Source: Pseudomonadales bacterium
GTDB taxonomy: Bacteria > Pseudomonadota > Gammaproteobacteria > Pseudomonadales > Azotimanducaceae
Assembly (NCBI GenBank): GCA_028285415.1
Contig: JANQPF010000005.1
Location: 124,001-188,000 of the forward strand
Direction of reading: 5' to 3'
DNA length: 64,000 bases
In this document: positions 6,261-20,539 of the stretch, one piece after another
Layout: every line of letters starts with the position of its first letter
Numbering within the stretch: position 1 is the first letter of the stretch
Program-made: the position numbers and the translations under genes
The notes under the pieces: model-generated
Database searches by the model: none
Told to the model about the DNA's origin: nothing
What the model saw: the letters and a program-made list of their open reading frames with translations, nothing else

Positions 6261-6274
6261 TTGATCCAAATCAA
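6261..6274. promoter_or_regulatory. FNR/ANR/DNR-type operator
   Basis: TTGATCCAAATCAA is an exact match to the FNR-family consensus TTGAT-N4-ATCAA. It lies 58 bases upstream of the luciferase-like gene in the 109-base gap after the RND operon. If it acts as a class II activator site (centre at -41.5), transcription would start near 6309; a weak -10 candidate (CAGGAT, 6296-6301) sits at that spacing. This predicts induction under low oxygen (FNR/ANR) or nitric oxide (DNR). Which regulator binds cannot be told from the box. Confidence 0.75.
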
Positions 6275-6331
6275 ATCCAGGCGTTTTGACTGCTTCAGGA
6301 TGGTCGTGCCCGCCATTTTGAGGAGTCGACC

Positions 6332-7441
6332 ATGGAGTTCAGTCTGTTCTATTTCGCCAATGACGAGGCTGAAGCTACAGATCCAAACAAGTACCGGCTG
6401 ATCCTGGAATCCGCGCAGTGGGCCGACCGCAACGGCTTTGTCCGCGTCTGGACCCCGGAACGCCACTTTCACAGCTTTGGCGGCCTTTCACCCAATCCGT
6501 CGGTGCTCGCCTCGGCTCTGGCCGCTTGCACGGAACGAATACAGCTCTGCTCAGGCAGCGTCGTCCTGCCGCTGCACGACCCCATCAGGGTTGCTGAAGA
6601 GTGGGCGGTGGTCGACAACATATCCGGCGGCCGCGTGGGGCTGGGTCTTGCGAGCGGCTGGGTGCCGAACGACTTTGTCATCGATGGGCACCAGGCCGAC
6701 TTTGCCTGCCGCAAGCAGGTGTTCGAAGACAAGATCCGGCTGCTGCAGCGGCTCTGGGCAGGTGAAAAGCACACGTTGATCAACCCGCATGGCGAGGAAG
6801 TCAGCGTGCAAACGATCCCGCGTCCGCTGCAACCCGAGGTGCCGATCTGGATCACCGCAGCTGCCAATCCGGAAACCTTCCGCCAGGCGGGAGAAATGGG
6901 TGTGAACTTGTTGACGCACCTGCTGGGACAGACAACGCAGGCGCTGGCCGAAAAGATAGCGGTCTATCGTGAAGCGTGGCGCGACGCGGGGCATCCTGGC
7001 AGCGGCACGATGACCGTCATGCTGCACACGCTCGTGGGCTCCAGTGATGAAGAGGTTCACGAGGTTGCCCGTGACCCGATGAAGCGTTACCTGGCCGGTT
7101 CTCTGAACCTCGCGCAGGAACATCTCGAGTCGGTGCCGTTTCTCAAGAGAGGTGGCGACATCGATCTCGAAAACGTCTCGGATGAGCTGGTTGATCAGGT
7201 GCTGGAGGCGTCGTTCGAGAAGTATTTCCACATGGGCAGCCTGCTTGGGTCGTATGAGAAGTGTCTCGACACCGTTGACGCGCTGACGGCGATTGACGTC
7301 GACGAGGTAGCCTGCCTGATCGACTTTGGTGTGGACACCGACACGGTGCTCGCCTCTCTCGAGAAGCTGAACGTCGTGCGCGTGTTGGCGAATGATCCTA
7401 CGATCGATGAGCCTGAGCCGATGCAGGCACAACGAGTATGA
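6332..7441 (+). CDS. MupA/Atu3671-type luciferase-like monooxygenase
   Basis: A 369-residue FMN-dependent luciferase-like (LLM) TIM-barrel oxygenase. It matches the subgroup usually found inside or beside NRPS/PKS pathways: N terminus EFSLFYFAND, then VWTPERHFHSFGGLSPNPSV, later LGLASGWVPNDF and the RPLQPEVPIWITAA strand. The ATG at 6332 has AGGAG six bases upstream. In this family reduced FMN and O2 oxygenate small substrates, sometimes carrier-bound ones. Here there is no carrier-protein, NRPS or PKS gene nearby. Its stop overlaps the diiron oxygenase start (ATGA), implying coupled expression and a shared pathway. An FNR-type box lies upstream, which is odd for an O2-using enzyme. Function beyond oxygenation is unknown. 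Confidence 0.85.
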   Translation: MEFSLFYFANDEAEATDPNKYRLILESAQWADRNGFVRVWTPERHFHSFGGLSPNPSVLASALAACTERIQLCSGSVVLPLHDPIRVAEEWAVVDNISGGRVGLGLASGWVPNDFVIDGHQADFACRKQVFEDKIRLLQRLWAGEKHTLINPHGEEVSVQTIPRPLQPEVPIWITAAANPETFRQAGEMGVNLLTHLLGQTTQALAEKIAVYREAWRDAGHPGSGTMTVMLHTLVGSSDEEVHEVARDPMKRYLAGSLNLAQEHLESVPFLKRGGDIDLENVSDELVDQVLEASFEKYFHMGSLLGSYEKCLDTVDALTAIDVDEVACLIDFGVDTDTVLASLEKLNVVRVLANDPTIDEPEPMQAQRV

Positions 7442-8325
7442 CCATGAATATGTGCTCATTTGAGAATACGAACCAGCTCGCAGCCAGGCTGAATGCCAAG
7501 TCTCGCGAAGGGTTTTACAACGTTTACGAGTCGTTCGACTGGCCGGAGACGCTGGCATCGGACTTTCTTGCAGTTCCCTTGGAATACACGACGCTCTACG
7601 GCACCGAGGTTTGGAGTGACCTGAGCGATGAGCAGAAGCGGAAGCTCACGATTACGGATACGGCGAATCTGTTTTCCAACACGCTTAACGGGGAACGACT
7701 GGTTGTAGGGGGGATGTCGCCGCAGCTCTACGGTAAGCACGCTCCCGCGGAGATTACGGAGTATCTCCATCACTTCCTCGACGAAGAAAACAAGCACATG
7801 ATCATGTTCGGCATCTTCTGCCGGAAATACATTGGTCGCGTCTACCCTGAAAAGCGACTTTCGTTTGCGATAAAAGACTATGCGCCTGGGGAGGAGCTCC
7901 TGCGCTTCTACACGCAAATCATGGTGGTAGAGGCTTACGGGGATTTTTACAACGTTCGAGCCATGAACGACGACCAATGCGATCCGTTGGTTCGTGACAT
8001 CAGTCGAGTGCATCATATCGACGAGGCACGCCACCTTTCCTTTGATCGTGCCTATATCACAGAGCTCGCAGCGCAGTATGTCCGGACCTGGGACGAGGCA
8101 ACGCTCGCCGGATTTCGTTCCTGGCTGGCCGAGTACATGCGCGTCATGTGGGTGACGTTTTACAATCCGGTGGCGTACAAGGATGCGGGTATTCCCGATG
8201 CCTATGAAGCCGCAAGAACTGCCATGGCCAGCGAATACCAGACGCAGCTGCGAGAAAAGATCTCTGCGGGCGTCGTCAAGTTTTTCATGAAGTGTGGTCT
8301 CCTGGATGCGCAGCCGGTACTGTGA
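7438..8325 (+). CDS. AurF-like diiron oxygenase
   Basis: A 295-residue ferritin-like helical protein resembling p-aminobenzoate N-oxygenase AurF. All seven expected diiron ligands can be placed: Glu86, Glu117-x2-His120 (EENKH), Glu165 (VVEAYGDFYN) and His192-x3-Glu196-x2-His199 (HHIDEARH). The 27-residue spacing between the third Glu and the His-x3-Glu-x2-His motif matches AurF. Known relatives oxidise amines to hydroxylamines, nitroso or nitro groups, or hydroxylate carrier-bound amino acids. The start overlaps the LLM stop; a second ATG two codons in is also possible. The substrate is unknown. Being coupled to an LLM oxygenase suggests consecutive oxidations of one small molecule, possibly on nitrogen; this is inference. 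Confidence 0.82.
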   Translation: MTMNMCSFENTNQLAARLNAKSREGFYNVYESFDWPETLASDFLAVPLEYTTLYGTEVWSDLSDEQKRKLTITDTANLFSNTLNGERLVVGGMSPQLYGKHAPAEITEYLHHFLDEENKHMIMFGIFCRKYIGRVYPEKRLSFAIKDYAPGEELLRFYTQIMVVEAYGDFYNVRAMNDDQCDPLVRDISRVHHIDEARHLSFDRAYITELAAQYVRTWDEATLAGFRSWLAEYMRVMWVTFYNPVAYKDAGIPDAYEAARTAMASEYQTQLREKISAGVVKFFMKCGLLDAQPVL

Positions 8326-8392
8326 CGCGGTGCCCTGCGCCTAGGGGATTTCCCCCATGGTCCGATGCGGACAATGGGTCACACTGCGCGGC

Positions 8393-9760
8393 ATGAAAGC
8401 CCTATTTGCACCCGACATCATCGCCCGCTACAACGTCAACGGCGCGCGCTACACCTCTTACCCGACGGCCAACGTGTTTCACGATCTCGGCGCCGGACCT
8501 TACGAACAGGCGCTCGACGGTATCGCCGACGGCCGGCCTCTCTCGCTATACCTGCACGTGCCGTTCTGCGACACCATCTGCTACTACTGCGCGTGTAACA
8601 AAATCAACACCGGCAACAAGAAGCACGCTGAGGCTTACATCGATCGGCTGATTCGTGAAATGGTGATGCAGGCTGATCATCTCAGTGGTTCACATCCCGT
8701 GGAGCAGCTGCACTTTGGCGGCGGTACGCCGACGTTTCTCGACGACAATCAGTTCAGGCGGGTGTTTGCGGGGCTCCGCGAACACTTTGAGCTCATGAGC
8801 GACGAACGGCGGGATTACTCGATAGAGATAGACCCACGGGGTCTACCCGTCGAGCGGATTGCTACCCTGGCTGAGCTTGGTCTCAACCGCATGAGCGTAG
8901 GCGTGCAGGACTTCGATCCGGCAGTGCAGGAAGCGGTCAACCGGATACAGTCGGAGGCCGAAACCCTCGCGGTGGTGGATGCGGCGCGCGCCAACGGTTT
9001 CGGTTCGATCAACGTGGATCTCATCTACGGATTGCCGTTGCAGACGGCGGCAGGCTTCGAACGCAGTCTCGATCGGGTGCTGGCGCTGGCGCCGGACCGG
9101 ATCTCCCTCTACAACTACGCGCATCTGCCGGAACGGTTCAAAACTCAGCGCCAGATCAAAGCGCAGGACCTTCCCTCACCGGAGACGAAGCTTGATCTCC
9201 TGGGCAAAGCCATCGAGCACTTCAACGTTGCCGGCTACGAATACGTCGGCATGGATCACTTCGCGAAGGCCACCGATCATCTGATTGCCGCCCAGCAGGA
9301 CGGCAGCCTGCAGCGCAACTTCCAGGGCTACACGACCCACGGACAGTGTGAGCTCATTGCGCTCGGCGTGAGCTCGATCAGTAAAGTTGGGCGCGTCTAT
9401 GCGCAGAACAGTAAAACTCTGGAGGCGTACTACGCGGCCATCGATGACGGACGGCTGGCGACGGAGCGCGGCTACGTGTTGACCCCGGACGACGAGGTGG
9501 TAGCCGATGCCATCCAGCGCATCATGTGCCACTTTCACGTTGATGTCAGCGATTTCAACAAGACGCATGGCGTGGACTTCTGGCAGCGGTTTGAATGCGC
9601 GTGGCCGGGTTTGAACGAGATGGCGGAAGAGGGGCTCATTGAGCTGTCCGAATCGAGTATTCGGATCACGCCAACCGGGCGCTTTCTCGTCCGCAACGTT
9701 TGTATGCTCTTTGATGCTCACTTACCTGCACAGTCCCAGGGTTTTTCCAAAACGGTGTAA
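8393..9760 (+). CDS. hemN: Oxygen-independent coproporphyrinogen III oxidase
   Basis: A 455-residue radical-SAM enzyme that decarboxylates coproporphyrinogen III to protoporphyrinogen IX without oxygen. The ATG at 8393 gives the standard N terminus (RYNVNGARYTSYPTANVF); an earlier in-frame GTG-type start would add a 12-residue tail with no support. The radical-SAM cluster motif C59-x3-C63-x2-C66-x-C68 is intact (VPFCDTICYYCACNK), followed by GGGTPTFL and the HemN-specific C-terminal region. Length matches true HemN rather than the shorter HemW. It lies 67 bases after the diiron gene on the same strand and may share the FNR-type promoter at 6261, which fits known ANR/FNR control of hemN. Confidence 0.95.
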   Translation: MKALFAPDIIARYNVNGARYTSYPTANVFHDLGAGPYEQALDGIADGRPLSLYLHVPFCDTICYYCACNKINTGNKKHAEAYIDRLIREMVMQADHLSGSHPVEQLHFGGGTPTFLDDNQFRRVFAGLREHFELMSDERRDYSIEIDPRGLPVERIATLAELGLNRMSVGVQDFDPAVQEAVNRIQSEAETLAVVDAARANGFGSINVDLIYGLPLQTAAGFERSLDRVLALAPDRISLYNYAHLPERFKTQRQIKAQDLPSPETKLDLLGKAIEHFNVAGYEYVGMDHFAKATDHLIAAQQDGSLQRNFQGYTTHGQCELIALGVSSISKVGRVYAQNSKTLEAYYAAIDDGRLATERGYVLTPDDEVVADAIQRIMCHFHVDVSDFNKTHGVDFWQRFECAWPGLNEMAEEGLIELSESSIRITPTGRFLVRNVCMLFDAHLPAQSQGFSKTV

Positions 9761-9841: not shown

Positions 9842-11302
9842 GTGAAAACTTGGATTTTTTTAGGGTGCCTGCTCCTCGCCTTGCCGTTGCTTGCAGCGGA
9901 AGACAGTCTGCGAGCTGCGCTCAAGGAACAGGTCTTTGAAGAGGCGGAACAGGCGCTGGCTGAGGCCAACGACGCGTCCGCCAGCGTGCTGACCCCGGAA
10001 ACCTACCGGCGAGCCGGAGAACTTTACAAGCGCGCAGATGACGCGTTTACGAGGGGTGCGGACGTCGACCGGGTGCGGAATATCCTCAGAGAGGCCACCG
10101 GCCTTTTCAGGGAGGCAGCAACTACCGCGGCCACAGTTGAGCAATTCGTGAACGCCGCGTTCCAGGCGCGTCGCGACGCGCTGCAAGCCGAGGCCCAGAA
10201 TCGCTCACCGGAGATCTGGAACAAAGCTGAAGTTCAGTTTTACGAAGCCACGTCCCGGGCGGAAAAAGGTCGCGAATCCCGAGTCGGTCAATACGCTGAG
10301 AAAGCAGAAACGCTCTACCGCGATGCGGAGCTTGCTTCCATCGAAACGGTACTGTTCACCGAGATTGACGAAGAAATTGCCCTGGCGAAGGACCTCGATG
10401 CCGATGACTGGGCGCCAAAATCTTATCAATCGGCGATTGACCTTCTGGCCCAGGCGCGCCAGGTACTGGCTAGAAGCCGCTACGACACGGACCAGCCCAG
10501 AAACCTCGCCAAGCAGGCTAAACATCAGGCGCTGCATGCACAATATGTTTCCCGGTTGGCGGACGATATCGACGATAACGATCTGACGCTCGAGGACGTG
10601 CTCCTCGAATGGGAGTCCGTTCTGGAACCCCTCGGCGAGCAGCTCGATGTACCCATGTACTTCGACGATGGTCCCAGCGTTTCAGTCAACCTGCTTGATG
10701 TTGCGCTTCGGGAGAGAAATACGCGCCTCAATCAGCTTGCGCAGGACGCGAGCACGCTGCAGCAACGCGTGAAGCTGCTGCAGGAGGAATTGCTTCTTGC
10801 GCAGTCCGAGCTCGAAAATCGAGAGGCGGCGCAAGCGCGTCTGGACCGTCGCCTTGCCCAGCAGGAGGAGCGGGAACGCATGCTTCAGCTGATAGAACAC
10901 CTGTTCAATGAGAACGAAGCTGAGGTTGTCCGTGCGGAGAACCGGCTGATCATACGCATGGTTGGACTTGGATTTGCGAGTGGCAGTGCCAAGGTGGAAA
11001 CCCGTCACCACGCGATTCTTGCAAAACTCCAGGAAGCCATTGGAAGGTTTCCAGAGGCGCCGATTACCATCGAGGGGCACACTGACTCTTATGGTGCGGA
11101 CACGGACAATCAACAGCTGTCCGTGCGCCGGGCGGAAGCGGTAGCGAGCTACCTTCGCAGTCAGGGGAGTGTTGGCACGTTACAACTCTCGGCGACCGGT
11201 TTTGGTGAAACACGCCCCATCGCCAACAACGAGACGGCGGATGGGCGCTGGAAGAACCGTCGTATAGACGTGGTCATTTATCCGTCCTGGTGGGCGAGCT
11301 GA
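9842..11302 (+). CDS. OmpA-family protein with long helical stalk
   Basis: A 486-residue exported protein starting at GTG 9842 (GGGAGG upstream). It has a signal peptide (MKTWIFLGCLLLALPLLA), a long Ala/Glu/Arg-rich helical region (about residues 25-345, with a strong coiled-coil stretch near 285-345), and a C-terminal OmpA-like peptidoglycan-binding domain (about 365-482) containing IEGHTDSYGADTDNQQLSV-x-RA and the NRRIDV end. Repeated AEx(L/F)Y-type helices suggest a TPR-like or DUF4398-like stalk. It probably anchors the outer membrane or a periplasmic partner to the cell wall. It follows hemN by 81 bases. Its 3' end overlaps the convergent cobA by 25 bases. Confidence 0.8.
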   Translation: MKTWIFLGCLLLALPLLAAEDSLRAALKEQVFEEAEQALAEANDASASVLTPETYRRAGELYKRADDAFTRGADVDRVRNILREATGLFREAATTAATVEQFVNAAFQARRDALQAEAQNRSPEIWNKAEVQFYEATSRAEKGRESRVGQYAEKAETLYRDAELASIETVLFTEIDEEIALAKDLDADDWAPKSYQSAIDLLAQARQVLARSRYDTDQPRNLAKQAKHQALHAQYVSRLADDIDDNDLTLEDVLLEWESVLEPLGEQLDVPMYFDDGPSVSVNLLDVALRERNTRLNQLAQDASTLQQRVKLLQEELLLAQSELENREAAQARLDRRLAQQEERERMLQLIEHLFNENEAEVVRAENRLIIRMVGLGFASGSAKVETRHHAILAKLQEAIGRFPEAPITIEGHTDSYGADTDNQQLSVRRAEAVASYLRSQGSVGTLQLSATGFGETRPIANNETADGRWKNRRIDVVIYPSWWAS

Positions 11303-12084
11303 TTCGAAAGTGACCCGCAGGATCGAGCGAACAGCGCGTTGCAATCGATTGTCGGTGCTGACAAATGGCTGGCGCGGTGATGCATGATCAGCAGTGCGGG
11401 GGCTGACACCTCTGCCAGCTGAGGATGTTCGAGGATGGCCCCGAGCGTGCTGTGTAATACGAGTTGATCCGGCTGTGTGGCGCGTGAAACGACGGTAAAC
11501 GGCGTGCTGGGGGGGCGACCCCGCTCAGTCAAGCCGGTCACAATGTCGCTCAAGACGGATAAACCCATGTAGATGGCTACCGTCTGACTGGGTTGCAGCA
11601 ACAGATCCCAGTCGATGCATAACCGGCCTGATCGACGATGCGCGGTGATCAGCGTTATTGCCTGATTGTGATCCCGGTGGGTAAGCGGTATGCCTGTGAT
11701 TGCGGCCGCGCCTTGTGCGGCGGTGATGCCGGGCACCACCTCCCAGGGAATGCCTGCGGCGTCCAGCGCGTCACACTCTTCTCCACCGCGGCCGAAGATG
11801 AATGGATCCCCGCCTTTGAGCCGCACTACTTTCAGGCCCAGCGCCGCTTTTTCCACGAGCACCTGGTTGATGGTGTCCTGAGACATGGCGTGCAGGTGCT
11901 TGCGTTTCCCGGCGTAGATGAGCTCACAGAATTCTGAAGGTATGGATAAGAGGGCTTTGTTGACGAGCCTGTCGTATACCACCACGTCAGCCTGGCTGAG
12001 GTAGCGGTGCCCCTTGATGGTCAGCAGTTCCGGGTCGCCGGGACCCGCACCGATCAGATAGACACTGCCGTCTCGTAAGGTCAT
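11278..12084 (-). CDS. cobA: Uroporphyrinogen-III C-methyltransferase
   Basis: A 268-residue SUMT that adds two SAM-derived methyl groups to uroporphyrinogen III, giving precorrin-2 for siroheme. Seen: VYLIGAGPGDPELLTIKG at the N terminus, YAGKR, VVRLKGGDPFIFGRGGEE and the VPGITAAQGAAAITGIPLTHR region, all diagnostic. It lacks the CysG dehydrogenase/ferrochelatase half, so those steps must be encoded elsewhere. Its ATG overlaps the nasA stop (ATGA) at the end of the nitrate operon; here it supplies siroheme for NirB, as in other nasA-linked copies. It overlaps the convergent OmpA-family gene by 25 bases at the 3' end. Confidence 0.95.
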   Translation of the reverse strand: MTLRDGSVYLIGAGPGDPELLTIKGHRYLSQADVVVYDRLVNKALLSIPSEFCELIYAGKRKHLHAMSQDTINQVLVEKAALGLKVVRLKGGDPFIFGRGGEECDALDAAGIPWEVVPGITAAQGAAAITGIPLTHRDHNQAITLITAHRRSGRLCIDWDLLLQPSQTVAIYMGLSVLSDIVTGLTERGRPPSTPFTVVSRATQPDQLVLHSTLGAILEHPQLAEVSAPALLIMHHRASHLSAPTIDCNALFARSCGSLSNQLAHQDG

Positions 12085-14699
12085 ACCACTGCAGCCAAAT
12101 CGTCGGTTCTGAAACTTTCAACGAGCTGGGACAGCTCGTGGCGGCAGGAGCCGCAATTGGTCCCGCAAGACAGAGCATCGCCGAGTTCAGCGACGCTGCT
12201 GGCACCGGCTCTCAACCCACGGAGAATGGCCTGTTCAGTCACCTGGAAGCAGGTGCAGATGCAGCGGGAAGTGTCGAGGGTACCCGGAGGAACGCTGGAC
12301 AATCGTTGCCAGTCTTCAGTCTCAACCTCCAGCTGAGCGGCGAGGTGCCGCCAGGTCGGTAGTTGGCTGTAACGATCCGATCCGAACAGCAGCCATTTTG
12401 GTTCATCCTCGGCTCTACCCAACGCGCGAAAACGATCGCTCCCCTGCATGGTGACGATGTCCGTCGCGTCCAGGAGCGATAACATGACTTCCAGATTGTC
12501 GGCTGCGACCTCGAAGCACATGGCATTCGGACCAGGAAGGCGCGACCAGAATTGAATGCCGGAACGTTCGAATTCTTCGCGCTCGACCGGTTCCAGAGTC
12601 ACCAGTCTCATCCGCCAGCGTACGGTCACGGGCTTGCAGTCAACGGCAGCGTGTTTGCTCTCCGGTTGTCCCGAGATTGGATCGGTGGCCGATTCAACAA
12701 GCTGACACACGTTGGCGCGTCCGGAAAACTGATCGTTCCAGTGAATGGGGGCGAACAAAGATCCCGGTTTGACATCGGTTGTCACGTCTGCGATGAGACG
12801 AATTTGCCCCAGGGAGTTCTCTACTTGAACAACGTCGCCTTCGTTGATGTTGCGAGGAGCTGCGTCGTGCGGGTGGATTTGCAACGCGGGCACCCAGGCG
12901 TCCTGAAAGAGATCCGTAACAGCACCGGTTCTCGTCATGGTGTGCCATTGGTCGCGATAGCGCCCGGTGTTGAGGACCAGAGGAGTCGCTGCGGAGGTCT
13001 GCTGGAATGGCCTTTGGGGCGTCACGGCGACGAATCGTGCACGCCCGTCGGGCGTGGAGAAGCGGTTGTTGGCAAAAGGTCGCGTCTTTGGCCATTGCAT
13101 TGGCACCATGCGGTCGTATTCGGTTGCAGCGAGGTTCACGAGGTGGCCCAGATCGAACGCGCGCTTACCGTTGTTTTCGAACGCGGAAAGACGCGCGTGC
13201 TCGTCGAAGATCTGTGCCGGAGTGGTGTAGTCGAACGCCTCCTCAAAACCCATCCTCGCCGCAACCTGGCATACGATCCACCAGTCGGACTTTGCCTCCC
13301 CTGGTGGCGCGATTAGACGCCGCTGCCTGGACAGACAACGCTCCGAATTGGTTACGGTGCCGTCTTTTTCTCCCCAACCCTGTGCGGGCAGGAGCACGTC
13401 CGCATAAGCGTTCGTGTCGGTTGCAGCGATGCAGTCTGAAACCACAACGGTTGGGCAGGCTGACAGCGCGTCGCGGATGGCATTGCTGTCCGGCAGGCTG
13501 ACAGCCGGATTGGTACCCATGATCCAGATGGCTTTGATTGTCCCATCAGCAACGGCCGCAAACATGTCTACTGCTTTCAGACCAGGTTCGCTGGCCATGT
13601 TGGGCGCCTGCCAGAACCGGCCGACACGGTCGACATCGGTAGCGTTGAAATCCATATGGGCAGCGAGCTGGTTTGCCATCCCGCCGACTTCCCGGCCGCC
13701 CATGGCGTTCGGCTGGCCGGTGATGGAGAAAGGACCGCAGCCGCTTCGACCAATGCGTCCGGTTGCCAGATGACAGTTGATGATGGCGTTTGCTTTGTCC
13801 GTCCCCTGGGAGGACTGATTCACGCCTTGCGAGAAGACCGTAACCACCCGTTCGGTTTCGGCAAACCACTCGAAAAAGGTCATGAGATCCGGCTCTGAGA
13901 GGCCGGTCTGCACGCACGCGTTGACCACGTCAGTTTTTACGTGCTGGCGGGTTTTGTCCCAGCCGCAGCTATGCTCGGCGATGAACTCATGATCCACGCG
14001 TCCGCTATCAGCAAGGTAGGTGAGCAAAGCGTTGAAGAGCGCAACGTCGGAGCCCGGCTCGATAGCGAGGTGCAGGTCGGCAATCGCGCAGGTGGGCGTC
14101 ACCTTGGGGTCGATGACAACAACCCGGGTGCCCTGGCGCTCTCGCGCTGCCGCCAGCCGTTGGTAGGCAACCGGATGTGCCCAGGCCATGTTTGATCCGC
14201 TCAGGATGACGAGTTCGGCAGTCTCGAGATCGGCGTATTCACACGGCACAACGTCCTCACCGAACGCGCGCTTGTGGGCGGCGACTGCAGATGCCATGCA
14301 AAGACGGGAATTGGTATCGACGTTGGCACCGCCGAGGAACCCTTTCATCAGCTTGTTGGCAACGTAGTAGTCTTCGGTGAGTAGCTGTCCGGACAGGTAA
14401 AAAGCAATCGATTCGGGGCCATGCTCATCGAGGGCATCCATGAACCTTTGTGCTACGAAGTCCAGAGCGGTATTCCAGTCGGTCTCCGCACCCGCTATCC
14501 GGGGCGTCAGCAGCCTGTCTTCCGTACCGGTGGTCGCAGCGAGATTGGTGCCCTTGATGCAGAGCTTGCCCTGGTTTGCGGGGTGAGCGCTGTCACCCTC
14601 AACGGCAATCAAGGCATCGTTCGAAACCCTTGCGCGGACGCCGCAGCCGACACCGCAATAAGGGCAGGTGGTTGCAATCCCCTCAGTCGTGGATGACAA
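12081..14699 (-). CDS. nasA: Assimilatory nitrate reductase, catalytic subunit
   Basis: An 872-residue cytoplasmic molybdenum bis-MGD enzyme reducing nitrate to nitrite. The frame is open further upstream, but a TTG at 14699, preceded by GGGAG at a 6-base spacing and overlapping the nirD stop, gives the correct N terminus. The 4Fe-4S motif follows: C12-x2-C15-x3-C19 and C47. The molybdopterin oxidoreductase and molydop-binding domains fill residues about 60-700. The C-terminal region (about 815-865) is a BFD-like [2Fe-2S] domain with CICTC and CGTNCGSC, the electron entry used in many NasA/NarB proteins. The electron donor is likely the flavoprotein at 17549-18718. The non-ATG start is inferred from context. 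Confidence 0.93.
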   Translation of the reverse strand: MSSTTEGIATTCPYCGVGCGVRARVSNDALIAVEGDSAHPANQGKLCIKGTNLAATTGTEDRLLTPRIAGAETDWNTALDFVAQRFMDALDEHGPESIAFYLSGQLLTEDYYVANKLMKGFLGGANVDTNSRLCMASAVAAHKRAFGEDVVPCEYADLETAELVILSGSNMAWAHPVAYQRLAAARERQGTRVVVIDPKVTPTCAIADLHLAIEPGSDVALFNALLTYLADSGRVDHEFIAEHSCGWDKTRQHVKTDVVNACVQTGLSEPDLMTFFEWFAETERVVTVFSQGVNQSSQGTDKANAIINCHLATGRIGRSGCGPFSITGQPNAMGGREVGGMANQLAAHMDFNATDVDRVGRFWQAPNMASEPGLKAVDMFAAVADGTIKAIWIMGTNPAVSLPDSNAIRDALSACPTVVVSDCIAATDTNAYADVLLPAQGWGEKDGTVTNSERCLSRQRRLIAPPGEAKSDWWIVCQVAARMGFEEAFDYTTPAQIFDEHARLSAFENNGKRAFDLGHLVNLAATEYDRMVPMQWPKTRPFANNRFSTPDGRARFVAVTPQRPFQQTSAATPLVLNTGRYRDQWHTMTRTGAVTDLFQDAWVPALQIHPHDAAPRNINEGDVVQVENSLGQIRLIADVTTDVKPGSLFAPIHWNDQFSGRANVCQLVESATDPISGQPESKHAAVDCKPVTVRWRMRLVTLEPVEREEFERSGIQFWSRLPGPNAMCFEVAADNLEVMLSLLDATDIVTMQGSDRFRALGRAEDEPKWLLFGSDRYSQLPTWRHLAAQLEVETEDWQRLSSVPPGTLDTSRCICTCFQVTEQAILRGLRAGASSVAELGDALSCGTNCGSCRHELSQLVESFRTDDLAAVV

Positions 14700-15024
14700 C
14701 CTGATCTCCCGCAATGGCAACCGGATACACCGGGAGCACAGTGTCCGGTTCCTCGAGACAACGTCCGTCGCGCAGGCTGAAGTGTTGCTTGTAGAGCGGG
14801 GAGGCAACAACCAGCGTTCCGGCACGGTCGCCCACAATGCCCCGCGAGATGACGTTTGCGCCACCGAGAGGGTCATAGTTCCCGACGCCGTACACGCAGG
14901 GCTCCTGATCCGGCAGGTAAAACAGCGCAATCTGCTCGCCGTTCCAGATCACGGCGGTTCCGGAGCCCGGTGTGAGGTCCGCAACTGAACAGAGAGGGGA
15001 TGCTGTCACGGACTGTTCGCTCAT
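14683..15024 (-). CDS. nirD: Nitrite reductase [NAD(P)H] small subunit
   Basis: A 113-residue Rieske-fold small subunit of the cytoplasmic siroheme nitrite reductase. It has the NirD core YDPLGGANVISRGIVGD followed by VASPLYKQHFSLRDG. The Cys/His ligands of a true Rieske cluster are absent, which is normal for NirD. The ATG overlaps the nirB stop by four bases, and the nirD stop overlaps the probable nasA start, so nirB, nirD and nasA are translationally coupled. NirD assists NirB in the six-electron reduction of nitrite to ammonium. Confidence 0.95.
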   Translation of the reverse strand: MSEQSVTASPLCSVADLTPGSGTAVIWNGEQIALFYLPDQEPCVYGVGNYDPLGGANVISRGIVGDRAGTLVVASPLYKQHFSLRDGRCLEEPDTVLPVYPVAIAGDQVVIHD

Positions 15025-17540
15025 ACTTCCACGGCCAGGTTGATGAGTTCTTCTTCACGCGCGGGCCGCTTCTGCCCGCGCTCGCGAACGAAACGCACGC
15101 CGGGATCCGGCTCGTCCGAGTTCGCGAATGCGCGAAAGCGTTTCAGCTGCTCCGGATCCTCGATGGTCGTCTTCCACTCGCACTGGTACGTGCCGACGAT
15201 ACTGGCCATCTGTGCTTCGAGCTCAGCGCCAATGCCGAGGCTGTCGTCTATGACCACTTCCCGTGCATAGTCCAGCCCGCCTTCCAGGGACTCGAGCCAA
15301 ACCGATGTGCGCTGCAGCCGATCGGCGGTACGAACGTAGAACATGAGGAAACGGTCGATGTAGCGAATCAGCGTGGCATCGTCCAGATCGGTGGCAAAGA
15401 GATCGGCGTGGCGCGGTCGCATGCCACCATTGCCGCCTACGTACAGGTTCCAGCCGCCTTCGGTAGCGATGACGCCCACGTCTTTGCTCTGAGCTTCGGC
15501 GCACTCACGCGTGCAGCCCGAAACGGCGAGTTTCAGCTTGTGCGGTGAACGCAAGCCCTTGTAGCGGTTCTCCAGCGTTAGCGCCATGCCCACCGAGTCC
15601 TGCACGCCGTAGCGGCACCAGGTGCTGCCGACGCAGGATTTCACGGTTCGCAGAGACTTCCCGTAAGCGTGTCCGGTTTCGAAACCGGCATCGACCAGCT
15701 CGCGCCAGATGAGCGGCAGCTCGTGGGCGTGTGCGCCAAAGAGATCAATGCGCTGACCGCCGGTAATTTTCGTATAAAGATCGTAGCGCTTGGCGACTTC
15801 CCCGATGGCGATCAGCTTGTCAGGCGTAATTTCACCGCCCGGGATGCGCGGCACAACCGAGTAGGTGCCGTTCTTCTGCATGTTCGCCAGCATGTGATCA
15901 TTCGTGTCCTGCAGGCCCACATGCTGTGCGTCCAGCACGTAGTCGTTGTACAGGGATGCAAATATCGATGCGGCGGCCGGTTTACAGATGTCACAGCCGA
16001 GCCCCTGACCGTGCCTGGACAGGAGCGTCGGCATGTCGCGAATCTGCTCGACCTGACAGATGTGGAACAGTTCCTGGCGGGTGTGGGCGAAGTGCTCGCA
16101 GATGGATTTATCCACCGCGATGCCCTGTGCCTCGAGCTCCGTATCAAACACGGACTTGAGAAGCGCGGCACAGCCCCCGCAACCGGTGCTCGCCCGCGTG
16201 GTGGACTTGAGCTCACCCAGATCCACACACCCCTTTGCCACGGAAGCGACAATCTCCCCTTTCGTGACGTTGTGGCATGAACACACAGCGGCGCTGTCGG
16301 GTAGCAGATCGGCGCTCAAACCACCCCCTTCCGCCGCCGAGACGAGCAGTGACTCGGGTGCGTCCGGTAGCGGCAGATGGTTCAGATAGTGTTGGAGGAT
16401 CTGATCGTACGGCTCCGTGTCGCCGACAAGGACGGCGCCGGTGATGAAACGGCCGTCCGCACTGACGTTCATGCGCCGATACACGTTGCGCACGGGATCG
16501 CGATAGGTGTAGGCCTGGCTGCTTTCGTCTGCGCCGTGGGCATCGCCGATGGAGCCGACCTCGACACCGAGGAGCTTCAGCTTGGTGCTCATGTCGGCTC
16601 CCGTGAAGCGCTCTGTACCGCTGGAGAGCGTAGCTACGGCTGTTTCAGCCATTCTATAGCCAGGGGCAACCAACCCGAAGATGCGGTTGTCGTATAGCGC
16701 ACACTCACCGATGGCAAGCACGTCCGGATGGCTCGTGACGCATTGCTCATCGACGACAATCCCGCCACGTGGACCGACTTCCAGGTCAGCATCCCGCGCG
16801 AGTTGGTCCTGCGGACGAATACCTGCCGAAAAGACGACCAGATCGGTCTCGAGCGTACTGCCGTTGGCAAAGCGCAGGATGAGCCGGTTATCTTCTGCGG
16901 CAATCTCCTGTGTGGCCGTATCGGTATGGACGGTCACGTCGAGCGCTTCGATGTGCTCGCGCAGAACTGCACTGCCGGTTGTGTCAAGCTGTACGCCCAT
17001 GAGTCCGGGAGCAAACTCCACCACGTGGGTGTCGAGTCCGAGGTTCTTGAGCGCGTTGGCACATTCGAGCCCGAGCAGACCTCCGCCAATCACCACTCCG
17101 GTGCTGGCGTTTTCGGCCGCTGATCGAATTGCGTCCAGATCTTCGATGGTCCGATAGACGAAACATCCTTTGAGAGTGTTTCCCGGTATCGGCGGCACGA
17201 AAGGGTAGGAACCGGTTGCCATGACGAGCTTGTCATACTGGAGGCGTGTGTTGTCTGCGAGTTCAATCTCATGCTGGCCTGTGTCCACAGACACAACGGC
17301 GGAACCCAGGCGTACCTCAATACCGAGACGCTTGTATTGCTCTTCGGTAGCAAGCGCCAGATCCGCAGGTGCTTTACCGGCGAAAAGCTCCGAAAGATGA
17401 ACGCGGTCGTATGCGCAACGCGGCTCTTCACCGACTATGACAATATTCGCTTCGCTCCCCTCCGTCGCCAGGGTGGTGGCGAAATGATGGCCGACCATGC
17501 CGTTGCCGATGATTACTACGTTGTCTGTTTTGTCATTCAC
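15021..17540 (-). CDS. nirB: Nitrite reductase [NAD(P)H] large subunit
   Basis: An 839-residue enzyme that reduces nitrite to ammonium. Domains in order: an FAD/NAD(P)H-binding oxidoreductase (residues 1-about 400, GNGMVG near the start and VVIGGGLLGLE at about 149), a BFD [2Fe-2S] domain with C420-x-C422 and C454-x2-C457, a second BFD-like segment near 516-519 (CDIC), and the ferredoxin-like/sirohaem-4Fe-4S half with C636-x5-C642 and C676-x3-C680 as cluster and sirohaem ligands. Length is typical. The gene lies 8 bases after the flavoprotein gene and overlaps nirD. Siroheme comes via CobA at the operon end. Confidence 0.97.
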   Translation of the reverse strand: MNDKTDNVVIIGNGMVGHHFATTLATEGSEANIVIVGEEPRCAYDRVHLSELFAGKAPADLALATEEQYKRLGIEVRLGSAVVSVDTGQHEIELADNTRLQYDKLVMATGSYPFVPPIPGNTLKGCFVYRTIEDLDAIRSAAENASTGVVIGGGLLGLECANALKNLGLDTHVVEFAPGLMGVQLDTTGSAVLREHIEALDVTVHTDTATQEIAAEDNRLILRFANGSTLETDLVVFSAGIRPQDQLARDADLEVGPRGGIVVDEQCVTSHPDVLAIGECALYDNRIFGLVAPGYRMAETAVATLSSGTERFTGADMSTKLKLLGVEVGSIGDAHGADESSQAYTYRDPVRNVYRRMNVSADGRFITGAVLVGDTEPYDQILQHYLNHLPLPDAPESLLVSAAEGGGLSADLLPDSAAVCSCHNVTKGEIVASVAKGCVDLGELKSTTRASTGCGGCAALLKSVFDTELEAQGIAVDKSICEHFAHTRQELFHICQVEQIRDMPTLLSRHGQGLGCDICKPAAASIFASLYNDYVLDAQHVGLQDTNDHMLANMQKNGTYSVVPRIPGGEITPDKLIAIGEVAKRYDLYTKITGGQRIDLFGAHAHELPLIWRELVDAGFETGHAYGKSLRTVKSCVGSTWCRYGVQDSVGMALTLENRYKGLRSPHKLKLAVSGCTRECAEAQSKDVGVIATEGGWNLYVGGNGGMRPRHADLFATDLDDATLIRYIDRFLMFYVRTADRLQRTSVWLESLEGGLDYAREVVIDDSLGIGAELEAQMASIVGTYQCEWKTTIEDPEQLKRFRAFANSDEPDPGVRFVRERGQKRPAREEELINLAVEV

Positions 17541-17548
17541 TGCCGCTC

Positions 17549-18718
17549 CTAATATCCAAATGCCAGCTGTTCGCGCGTGCTGCTGTCCGTAAACGAATTG
17601 ATCTGCGCGGCGATCTTCGCAGCCCCATTGATTCGGCCGAAAAGGACCGCGCCAATCAGGGTGCTTCCCTGGAAGAAGAGTCGTCGGTAGATGCCGTGTG
17701 TTCGATCGCGGATGACCACATCTTCCGTTGCGCCCTCAGGGCGCGTCTGCCCGGCGCTGAAGAGCGCAAGGTGTTCGAGCTTGAGGTGCGTGCTCGGGAC
17801 GAAATCAGGCATGCGTGCGTCGCCACCGCTCAGGTTCTCCGCCAGCACGTCGGCTTGCTGATTCACCAGTGCAACGAGTCCTGCTCGCTGTCCGGACATG
17901 TTGGCGCATTCGCCGATGGCGCAAACGCCAGGTATTTGGGTCTGCAGACGATCGTCGACGAGGATGCCGAGGTTGCATGGCACGCCGGCAGTCTGAGCGA
18001 GTTCAACTCGCGGCGTGGTGCCTGTCGCAAGCAGCAGGAGGTCGGTCTCCAGTGAGACTCCGTTGTCGAGCGTCACTGCGTTGATATGCTTGTCGCCTTC
18101 GACCGCGGCGATACTGGCCTCCAGCGAGAGCCCGATGCCACGAGCCCTCAGGTGATCGGCAAGAAGCTCAGCGCTCTGATCATCCAGCTGCCGGTGCATC
18201 AGCGCACTGCCCCGGTGCACGACGTGAACGTCGAGGCCCTGACGCGACAGCGCGTCTGCCGTTTCAAGACCGAGCAGCCCGCCACCCAGCACGACAGCTC
18301 GGCTGGCGCGGTGCATCTCGGAGCGCAGCTCGTCCGCGTTGGCGAGCGTTCGCAGCGGCATCACGCCGGGTAGATGAATACCTGGAATGGGAGGTATTGG
18401 AGCGGTTGATCCGGTAGCAAAGACCAGGTTCTCGAACTGAAGACGCTCGTGCCCGGCGACGGCCACGCGCCGCTGCAGGTCTATCGCATCGATTCTGGTT
18501 TCGGTCAGAGTAGTTAGATCAACGCTTTCAGGAGTCTGCATCTGGTGTCGTGTGCACGCGCCGGCCACGTAGTCCGGCAGCAACACGCGGTTGTAGCCGA
18601 GATCGGGTTCATCACCCGCGATGATCACGGATGCGTCGGGTTTCCTCGAGACCAGGCGTTGCGCCAACCTGGCCCCGGCCATACCGCCACCTACGATGAG
18701 AACCTCGCAGACCCTCAT
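17549..18718 (-). CDS. FAD/NAD(P)H oxidoreductase, probable NasA partner
   Basis: A 389-residue pyridine-nucleotide-disulphide-type flavoprotein resembling rubredoxin reductases and the N-terminal part of NirB. It shows an FAD Rossmann motif (VLIVGGGMAGARLAQ), the second nucleotide-binding motif VVLGGGLLGLETADAL near residue 140, and the TDLLLLATGTTPR and PGVCAIGECA signatures. It lacks the active-site cysteine pair of disulphide reductases. Its ATG overlaps the ABC ATPase stop, and it precedes nirB by 8 bases. Role by inference: transfer of electrons from NAD(P)H to the BFD cluster of NasA, as for NasB/NasC-type electron-transfer subunits. A function with NirB is less likely, because NirB carries its own flavin domain. 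Confidence 0.8.
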   Translation of the reverse strand: MRVCEVLIVGGGMAGARLAQRLVSRKPDASVIIAGDEPDLGYNRVLLPDYVAGACTRHQMQTPESVDLTTLTETRIDAIDLQRRVAVAGHERLQFENLVFATGSTAPIPPIPGIHLPGVMPLRTLANADELRSEMHRASRAVVLGGGLLGLETADALSRQGLDVHVVHRGSALMHRQLDDQSAELLADHLRARGIGLSLEASIAAVEGDKHINAVTLDNGVSLETDLLLLATGTTPRVELAQTAGVPCNLGILVDDRLQTQIPGVCAIGECANMSGQRAGLVALVNQQADVLAENLSGGDARMPDFVPSTHLKLEHLALFSAGQTRPEGATEDVVIRDRTHGIYRRLFFQGSTLIGAVLFGRINGAAKIAAQINSFTDSSTREQLAFGY

Positions 18719-19554
18719 CAGGCAGCTTCTGACTGTGCCGCCACGTTCTCGTTCGGATTTTCTCCCGTGTCTGGCTTCTGGTGCGCGGCGTACAGGAAGT
18801 CCAATACCAGGCGGCGGCAGTGATTGAACTGGGCGTCCTCGGCGAGTGCCAGCCGCTCTCTCGGACGCGCCAGATTGACGTCGACAATCTGACCAACGCG
18901 TGCTGCCGGGCCGTTGGACATCATGACAATCCGGTCTGACAGGAGCACGGCTTCATCGACATCATGTGTAATCATGATGACGGTATTCCCGAGCTCACGG
19001 TGAATCTCCATGGTAGTGTCCTGCAGCTGTGCTCTCGTCAGCGCGTCGAGCGCGCCGAAGGGCTCGTCCATCAGCAGAAGCTTTGGCTGCATGGCGAGTG
19101 CTCGGGCGATACCAACGCGTTGCTTCATGCCGCCGGATATCTCGTGAGGCATCTTGCCGGCGGCGTGGCTCATGTTCACCAGAGCCAGGTTGTGTTCGAT
19201 CCACTCGTGCATCTCGGCCTTCGACTTGGTTTTCTTGAAGACCGTTTTCACAGCGAGCGCGACGTTGCCGTACACGGTCAACCAGGGCATGAGCGCGTGA
19301 TTCTGAAAGACCACCGCTCGATCGGGGCCCGGCTCCGTAATTTGCTTGTTGTCGAGAAAGACGCCTCCGGAAGTGACATCAAGAAGTCCTGCAACGATGT
19401 TGAGCACCGTCGATTTGCCGCAGCCCGAATGACCGATGAGGGAGATGAACTCACCCTCCGAGATTTTGAGATCCACTTCGCGCAGCGCCTCGAAAGAACC
19501 GCTGTCTGTATGGAAAGTTTTGCTGATCTGGCTGATGTCGAGAAAATGTGTCAT
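18718..19554 (-). CDS. nrtD: Nitrate ABC transporter, ATP-binding protein
   Basis: A 278-residue ABC ATPase of the nitrate/sulfonate/taurine class that powers nitrate uptake. Seen: Walker A GHSGCGKST near residue 42, Q-loop, signature ISGGMKQRVGIARAL, Walker B LLLMDEPFGALD and the switch His in MITHDVDEA. A single ATPase is present, unlike cyanobacterial systems with a fused NrtC sensor. It begins 13 bases after the permease stop and overlaps the flavoprotein start by one base. Confidence 0.93.
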   Translation of the reverse strand: MTHFLDISQISKTFHTDSGSFEALREVDLKISEGEFISLIGHSGCGKSTVLNIVAGLLDVTSGGVFLDNKQITEPGPDRAVVFQNHALMPWLTVYGNVALAVKTVFKKTKSKAEMHEWIEHNLALVNMSHAAGKMPHEISGGMKQRVGIARALAMQPKLLLMDEPFGALDALTRAQLQDTTMEIHRELGNTVIMITHDVDEAVLLSDRIVMMSNGPAARVGQIVDVNLARPRERLALAEDAQFNHCRRLVLDFLYAAHQKPDTGENPNENVAAQSEAA

Positions 19555-19567
19555 GAGGTCTGCTCTG

Positions 19568-20539
19568 TTAACGTAAAACTGCGGACTTGTCCCAGCTCAC
19601 CCGGCGTTGCAGGAGCAGCATGCAGCGGTCCAATGCAAAGCCAATCAGCCCGATGGTGACAACCGCCACCATGATGCGGGCCAGAGAGTTGGAAGAGCCG
19701 TTTTGGAATTCGTCCCAGATGAATTTTCCGAGCCCCGGGTTCTGCGCGAGCATCTCAGCGGCGATGAGCACCATCCAACCTGTTGCAAGCGACAATCGCA
19801 GCCCGGTGAAAATCATGGGTACCGACGAGGGCAGGACAATCTTGGCAACATGAGTCATTGGCGGGAGCTTGATGACCTTGCCAACGTTGACCAGATCGCG
19901 ATCGATACCGGCAACGCCAACCGTCGTATTGATGACCGTTGGCCACAGGCAGCAGAGCGCGACGGTGAATGCGGAATTCAGAAAGGACTTCTCGAACATG
20001 GGGTCATCACTGACGTACAGTGCGGAGACCACCATGGTTACCAGCGGCAGCCAGGCAAGCGGCGACACCGGTTTGAACACCTGAATGATTGGATTGAATG
20101 CCTGATAGATCCGCTCGTTCAGCCCACAGGCAATCCCAAGAGGAATGGCGACGGCTGATGCCAGTACGAATCCGAACATGACGGTGTAAAGGCTCGTGAA
20201 AATCTGGTCGAGAAAGCTCGGTTTGCCCGTGTAGCTCCTCCACTTCACTTCTGCGTCCGGGTTCTTTGCGAGCTTTTCGGCGTTGCGCTTCTCCTGGCGC
20301 TCGTGGAACCGCTCAGCCTTCTCCCGTTGCTCTAGATGCTCTTCATAAAGCGAATTCGACTGTTCCCAGACCTGGGCAGGTCCGGGAAACTTGCCGAGCG
20401 ACGTATCGATGTTGTTTGCTGTGATGTGCCAGATCAGGAGGAAAAACGCGATGCCTGCGGCAGGCACTACGCCGCGCGCGAACAGCATGGGTAAGCGGCG
20501 ACCGGCGGCCTCCAGATTGATGCTGGCGAGGGTAATCAC
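19568..20539 (-). CDS. nrtB: Nitrate ABC transporter, permease
   Basis: A 323-residue inner-membrane permease. One N-terminal helix (about residues 20-42) is followed by a charged cytoplasmic/periplasmic linker rich in Glu and Lys (about 60-100), and then five to six helices with the ABC permease EAA-like loop ([14 protein letters not shown] region, about 240-260). The long linker is usual in NrtB/CmpB proteins. The GTG start at 20539 overlaps the nrtA stop (GTGA). It forms the channel for nitrate, probably as a homodimer, with NrtD. Confidence 0.92.

Follow-up and report, generated by a model that had tools for sequence, protein, structure and literature searches.

A conserved FNR/ANR-type box ahead of a predicted luciferase-like and AurF-like oxygenase cassette in a Pseudomonadales bacterium

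FNR is usually presented as the switch to anaerobic life. The core regulon of Anr, its counterpart in Pseudomonas, includes hemN, qor/hemF, azu and oprG (PMC6588701). Within the MupA/Atu3671 monooxygenases, flavin-dependent monooxygenase (FMO) domains embedded in adenylation (A) domains were assigned the alpha-hydroxylation of tethered glycine (PMC10204066), and the oxygenase domain of PuwE the 2-hydroxylation of an acyl chain (PMC4219810). Here we analysed 64,000 nucleotides (the window) of a Pseudomonadales bacterium of the family Azotimanducaceae (GCA_028285415.1, contig JANQPF010000005.1, positions 124,001 to 188,000 of the forward strand). In this window an FNR/ANR-type box precedes genes for a stand-alone luciferase-like monooxygenase (LLM) and an AurF-like diiron oxygenase, which are followed by hemN. 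Comparison with related genomes supports the box as a conserved element ahead of the oxygenase genes, with what appears to be the geometry of FNR-type activation. We consider it rather likely that the pair is a microaerobically induced cassette behind an FNR/ANR-activated class II promoter, in which both enzymes would oxidise the same or a related substrate.

The locus comprises the following features, with coordinates given in the window:

6261-6274, + strand: FNR/ANR-type box TTGAT-N4-ATCAA (TTGATCCAAATCAA), perfect palindromic half-sites
6296-6301, + strand: -10-like hexamer CAGGAT (3/6 compared to TATAAT), 21 bases past the box; predicted transcription start about 6308
6320-6325, + strand: Shine-Dalgarno-like GAGGAG ahead of the LLM start, as read from the sequence
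6332-7441, + strand: stand-alone MupA/Atu3671-family FMN-dependent LLM (TIGR04020)
7438-8325, + strand: AurF-family diiron oxygenase (PF11583), 4-base overlap with the LLM stop
8393-9760 (alternative ATG 8357), + strand: hemN, oxygen-independent coproporphyrinogen III oxidase (TIGR00538)

An initial annotation of this DNA had placed a perfect box at 6261-6274, where we found it on the + strand. The identities it had assigned to the three genes hold as well: all of them score above the cut-offs of their family models (LLM 463.3 bits against 244.45; AurF-like protein 130.9 bits against 29.6; HemN 520.2 bits against the equivalog cut-off of 324.95). Between the box and the LLM ATG at 6332 lie 57 bases (58 in the initial annotation), and its upper limit of 67 bases for the gap to hemN stands (31 or 67 bases for the ATG at 8357 or 8393, respectively).

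Within the window the box is the sole perfect match to its pattern. With up to one mismatch 3 matches were obtained compared to 1.06 expected, a number reached in 8 of 100 shuffles. The own genome (G000, 5.97 Mb) holds 16 perfect boxes and none of the reversed control pattern. For the comparison with relatives, open reading frames (ORFs) were called by a simple script rather than a gene finder, and wrong-frame ORFs appear in GC-rich DNA. Conservation of box and gene order had been named by the initial annotation as a check, and the two behaved differently. All three gammaproteobacterial genomes found with a close pair (G000, G031, G085) carry a perfect box whose centre precedes the first start by 62-67 bases. 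Gene order is not conserved: G031 has AurF ahead of LLM, with a perfect box still in front of the first gene. A stand-alone LLM gene in G047 follows a 9/10 box centred 76 bases before the start. Upon dinucleotide shuffling of the 150-base stretch ahead of the start (n = 20,000) an equally good box arose 4 times for G000, 13 times for G031 and once for G085, as well as in 173 of 20,000 shuffles for G047. When the promoters were aligned on the box, the flanks were identical at 5-13 of 40 and 6-15 of 45 positions, compared to 9-10 of 10 within the box.

The boxed promoters share a second element. A hexamer of the form xAxxxT was found 21 or 22 bases past the box at 10 of 15 boxed starts, a count that none of 20,000 shuffles reached. 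It was present in 4/4 LLM promoters (matched in 4 of 20,000 mononucleotide shuffles) and in 6/7 of the other boxed promoters, i.e. those of desaturase, FMO-like, ompW-like and nrdJ genes (1 of 20,000 mononucleotide shuffles of the leaders). The first of these tests used 11 boxed starts of our own choosing, and LLM and other promoters were separated only once the pattern had been noticed in the whole set; four starts added later, all lacking the hexamer, gave the total of 15. The tests were confined to boxes outside ORFs and close to starts, with a minority of those of genome G025 and none of genome G574. The spacing seen here corresponds to that of class II FNR activation. The predicted promoter would thus have its site centred near -41 and its start near 6308, close to the 6309 annotated initially.

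A candidate for a protein reading the box is encoded in all three pair genomes and in G025. In these four FNR/ANR-like proteins (L056 in G000) the residues C35, C38, C44 and C136 as well as E221-x2-S224-R225 are invariant. We take the former (CX2CX5C plus one) to be the cluster cysteines and the latter (E-x2-SR) to be the motif of the DNA-reading helix. At an E-value of 1e-10 the search for FNR-like proteins gave no match in G626, G796 and G574, and weak matches only in G627 and G982 (46 and 51 bits). Two perfect boxes separate the FNR-like gene of G000 from an ompW-like gene; OprG is presumably of the OmpW type. In Pseudomonas, oprG belongs to the Anr core (PMC6588701).

The boxes also point to further target genes. 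Of the 16 perfect boxes in G000, two are intergenic and far from a convincing ORF start and five precede a start by at most 110 bases, with two of these at fnr/ompW and one each at the pair, at a fatty acid desaturase gene (PF00487) and at the gene of an FMO-like monooxygenase (PF00743). The remaining nine are considered below. The desaturase box is perfect and centred 64-66 bases before the start in both G000 (C23:131476-131489, L012) and G031 (C145:1664-1677, L159). Besides the pair, the desaturase is thus an O2-using enzyme whose box is conserved, here in two genomes. For the FMO-like monooxygenase (G000:C26:51601-51614, L014) the perfect box is centred 65 bases before the start and TATGCT occupies the -10 position. 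G031 has 21 perfect boxes and 5 matches to the reversed control. Two of its boxes are intergenic and less than 100 bases before a start (pair and desaturase), two more are equally close to a start and within another ORF (L152, L165), and the remainder sit inside ORFs or farther away. In G085, 4 of 5 perfect boxes are found less than 80 bases before a start, namely of the pair, ompW, nrdJ and a gene read as acyl-CoA dehydrogenase. Upstream of the cbb3-like oxidase genes the best match reached 7/10 positions.

The solved chain nearest to the LLM is 6ket, named PuwE (E 1.8e-103). In a tree of 41 rows the 6 stand-alone proteins form one side of a branch with a support of 100/99. These rows represent 41 of 52 listed matches; 11 without a locus were omitted, and in the row of L209 an X stands in for a stop. 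Among the other 35 rows, to which the own LLM is 43-54% identical, 32 derive from open frames of 1,339-1,680 residues. The stand-alone LLM represents a free-standing branch, whereas its domain mostly resides inside non-ribosomal peptide synthetase (NRPS) proteins. A larger LLM protein of the own genome has the order formyltransferase, AMP-binding, LLM, AMP-binding, carrier. When the NRPS, polyketide synthase (PKS) and AMP-ligase sequences of the own genome were used in tblastn, only the LLM itself was matched in the pair loci L038, L039 and L040 and in L214, which has a lone LLM. In the window the only match beyond the LLM was an AMP-ligase-like stretch 27 kb away, with no NRPS/PKS next to the pair. 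The positive controls L045, L050 and L103 gave NRPS matches of nearly full length.

LLM in large ORFs (1,018-1,575 residues) is also carried by 5/6 genomes with a stand-alone LLM. In the family the two are linked (3/4 compared to 3/202, p 5.5e-5; G054 with its contig-edge ORF omitted). We considered whether the pair represents spare copies for an NRPS pathway and did not adopt this as our preferred interpretation: G085 has the stand-alone LLM only, and G047 lacks AurF. As a separate observation, the region G000:C7:73500-112900 (L213, L100) contains a formyltransferase-adenylation-LLM-carrier protein and a PKS among glycosyltransferase-like ORFs, with a second AurF-type gene beside an AMP-ligase about 24 kb from the embedded LLM. 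In three further genomes (L045, L050, L103) an AurF-type gene lies about 3 kb or less from a formyltransferase-adenylation-LLM-carrier megaenzyme.

The AurF-like protein has no match in NCBIfam. Its structural model (pLDDT 89.6) has AurF, chain 2jcd_B, as the top match in the PDB (TM 0.61, E 2.1e-5), and the AurF and CmlI chains recovered by this fold search are 14-16% identical to it. A sequence search of the PDB gave a single match at chance level (E 0.84). E86, E117, H120, E165, H192, E196 and H199 are invariant in 14/14 aligned rows. We take the pattern E, E-x2-H, E, H-x3-E-x2-H to be that of the AurF diiron ligands, such that these seven residues are candidate metal ligands.

With a limit of 1e-30, 6 of 206 family genomes gave an AurF match, which reached at least 60% identity in G000, G031 and G085. 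The pair is also carried by the Myxococcota G626 (L040) and G627, whose AurF is 61-64% identical; in G627 AurF is immediately preceded by the end of an LLM where a contig stops (L041), and the remainder of an LLM lies on another contig. Among 377 sampled Myxococcota, 17/17 genomes with AurF have LLM, which occurs in 37 overall (p 1e-19, kinship ignored); in the family the numbers are 5/6 with LLM in 8/206 (p 1e-7, kinship ignored). The best few candidates were scored per genome, and 3 of the 17 (G626, G627, G628) had been reached via AurF itself. Because this AurF type occurs together with LLM (17/17, 5/6), the two proteins probably serve one pathway. From G047 it appears that LLM may do without AurF. 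Viral relatives of the AurF-like protein were sought and none confirmed, and the 17 plasmid records with relatives each stayed below 60% identity. On three of the plasmids, from Agrobacterium vitis (L076), Tistrella (L077) and Streptomyces (L078), a nitronate monooxygenase gene lies near the distant AurF relative (about 33% identity); a phosphopantetheinyl transferase is additionally listed for L076 and L078, and a carrier protein for L078.

The initial annotation had counted hemN as part of the same unit, which the relatives do not bear out. It does not adjoin the pair in G031 (L038), G085 (L039) or G626 (L040), and on this ground we rejected it as a member of the oxygenase unit. A search of nine genomes gave hemN matches in four (G000, G085, G574, G627), and at 1e-50 no match in G031 (90% complete) or G626. 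In G085, hemN lies immediately 3' of the FNR-like gene. Since the gap between AurF and hemN in the own genome shows no terminator- or promoter-like site, read-through from the pair into hemN is plausible there. Farther along the window (11278-20539), on the opposite strand, ORFs resemble nitrate/nitrite assimilation and nitrate ABC transport genes, judged by their translations alone.

The box and its conservation, the promoter spacing, the regulator with its cluster cysteines, the enzyme families and the co-occurrence of AurF and LLM were all read from sequence. From these we infer the following course of events. The box would serve a class II FNR/ANR-dependent promoter as its activator site. 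As oxygen falls, the FNR/ANR-like protein would retain its [4Fe-4S] cluster, bind the box and turn on the LLM-AurF operon, with hemN co-expressed by read-through in the own genome. The dose of two O2-using enzymes would thereby be raised while O2 is scarce yet present. For the LLM the most likely reaction is alpha-hydroxylation of an acyl or aminoacyl group bound as a thioester, and for the AurF-like protein the oxidation of the nitrogen, or of some other position, in the same substrate or a related one.

Several observations weigh against this interpretation. A box is missing in G626 (best 7/10 positions), one of the two pair-bearing Myxococcota, and in the other, G627, the LLM locus showed none. 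Perfect boxes are often not sites, as 9/16 of those in G000 lie inside ORFs, and G574 has five perfect boxes while lacking an FNR-like match at 1e-10. Three of the FNR-like proteins score 109, 123 and 133 bits with the NCBIfam model NF008365 (Fnr), below its cut-off of 228, which is why we call them FNR/ANR-like. The hexamers of the pair promoters are weak compared to TATAAT (CAGGAT 3/6, TAGCCT 3/6, CACCCT 2/6), and 5/15 boxed starts lack the hexamer. The cassette is rare, given that a stand-alone LLM occurs in 4/206 family genomes. The enzymes need not always cooperate, as seen from AurF without an LLM match in G043 and LLM without an AurF match in G047. Lastly, a second Crp/Fnr-family regulator is encoded in G000 directly after a COX1-family gene, such that nitric oxide (NO) could be the signal.

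This last point leads to the alternative that survives best. ANR and DNR sites look alike, so that the box may be read mainly by a DNR-like, NO-responsive regulator, and the pair would serve e.g. N-oxidation or detoxification under denitrifying conditions. We read the second regulator as DNR-like and the COX1-family gene as a putative norB, and a box, TTGACATAGATCAA, lies upstream of this stretch. NCBIfam confirms neither name: the regulator reached 76 bits with FtrB (cut-off 211) and the COX1-family gene had no match. Moreover, perfect boxes of the same geometry precede ompW-like, desaturase and nrdJ genes, none of which are NO genes, and the half-site of the nor-side box is TTGAC in contrast to TTGAT in the pair boxes. 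We regard control mainly by NO as unlikely.

Somewhat less probable still is a repressive role, in which FNR would shut off the O2-using enzymes under anoxia, as has been proposed for Anr and the O2-using cio oxidase of Pseudomonas (PMC6588701). The class II activation spacing at 10/15 boxed starts, including 4/4 LLM promoters, argues against a repressor site, and no sigma-70 promoter-like site was seen on the + strand between 6150 and 9950. A quite improbable case is that hemN is the true FNR target and the oxygenases are passengers inserted between box and hemN. It would agree with hemN belonging to the Anr core regulon shared by five Pseudomonas species (PMC6588701) and with the window having no other box (up to one mismatch) near hemN. 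In G031, G085 and G047, however, the box precedes LLM or AurF, and G031 and G085 have no hemN beside the pair. That the box is a chance palindrome without function, as the ORF-internal boxes of the own genome (9/16) and the 21 perfect boxes against 5 control matches in G031 might suggest, is hardly credible, because it is kept across diverged promoters with a fixed -10 spacing.

Under activation by an FNR/ANR-like protein, several O2-using enzymes (LLM-AurF, fatty acid desaturase, FMO-like monooxygenase) may together form a microaerobic oxygenase programme. We put this forward tentatively and hold it to be possible rather than probable. Such a programme would sustain oxidative chemistry, or an alpha- and N-oxidised metabolite would be made only at the oxic-anoxic boundary by a tailoring pair akin to those found with NRPS assembly lines. 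The conserved FNR-type promoter on oxygen-consuming enzymes makes it a testable idea that the same switch secures oxygen-dependent chemistry at low oxygen in some bacteria. The small free-standing pair is also a target for enzymology, its relatives being mostly in or beside megasynthases.

Compared to known systems, the promoter has much in common with FNR/ANR class II promoters of gammaproteobacteria, namely the palindromic TTGAT-N4-ATCAA, a site near -41 and an FNR-like gene beside an ompW-like gene with boxes in between. The 11 core Anr boxes that the abstract of PMC6588701 names include no two-gene oxygenase cassette. The LLM belongs to the same family (TIGR04020) as the MupA/Atu3671 monooxygenases, e.g. 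the PuwE oxygenase domain and the A-domain-inserted FMO domains. It differs from them in being free-standing on a branch of its own, with a diiron partner, an FNR-type box and no adjoining NRPS/PKS. With the AurF/CmlI arylamine N-oxygenases the second protein shares PF11583, the AurF-like fold and the seven candidate metal ligands, at only 14-16% identity. DnfA of dirammox (PMC9136411) is grouped with these enzymes, the comparison here covering AurF and CmlI. Among the papers listed, titles and beginnings of abstracts gave no description of a stand-alone LLM-AurF cassette or its conserved box, and none of those listed contained both AurF and luciferase-like. CrtA and HemF use O2. FnrL activates crtA (PMC5398030) and an Anr box precedes qor/hemF (PMC6588701), such that in both cases an O2-using enzyme is likewise under an FNR-type protein at low oxygen; the enzymes and pathways are other than those of the LLM-AurF cassette. 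Given these precedents, FNR-family control of O2-using enzymes is not new as a principle, and what looks new is the cassette together with its conserved switch.

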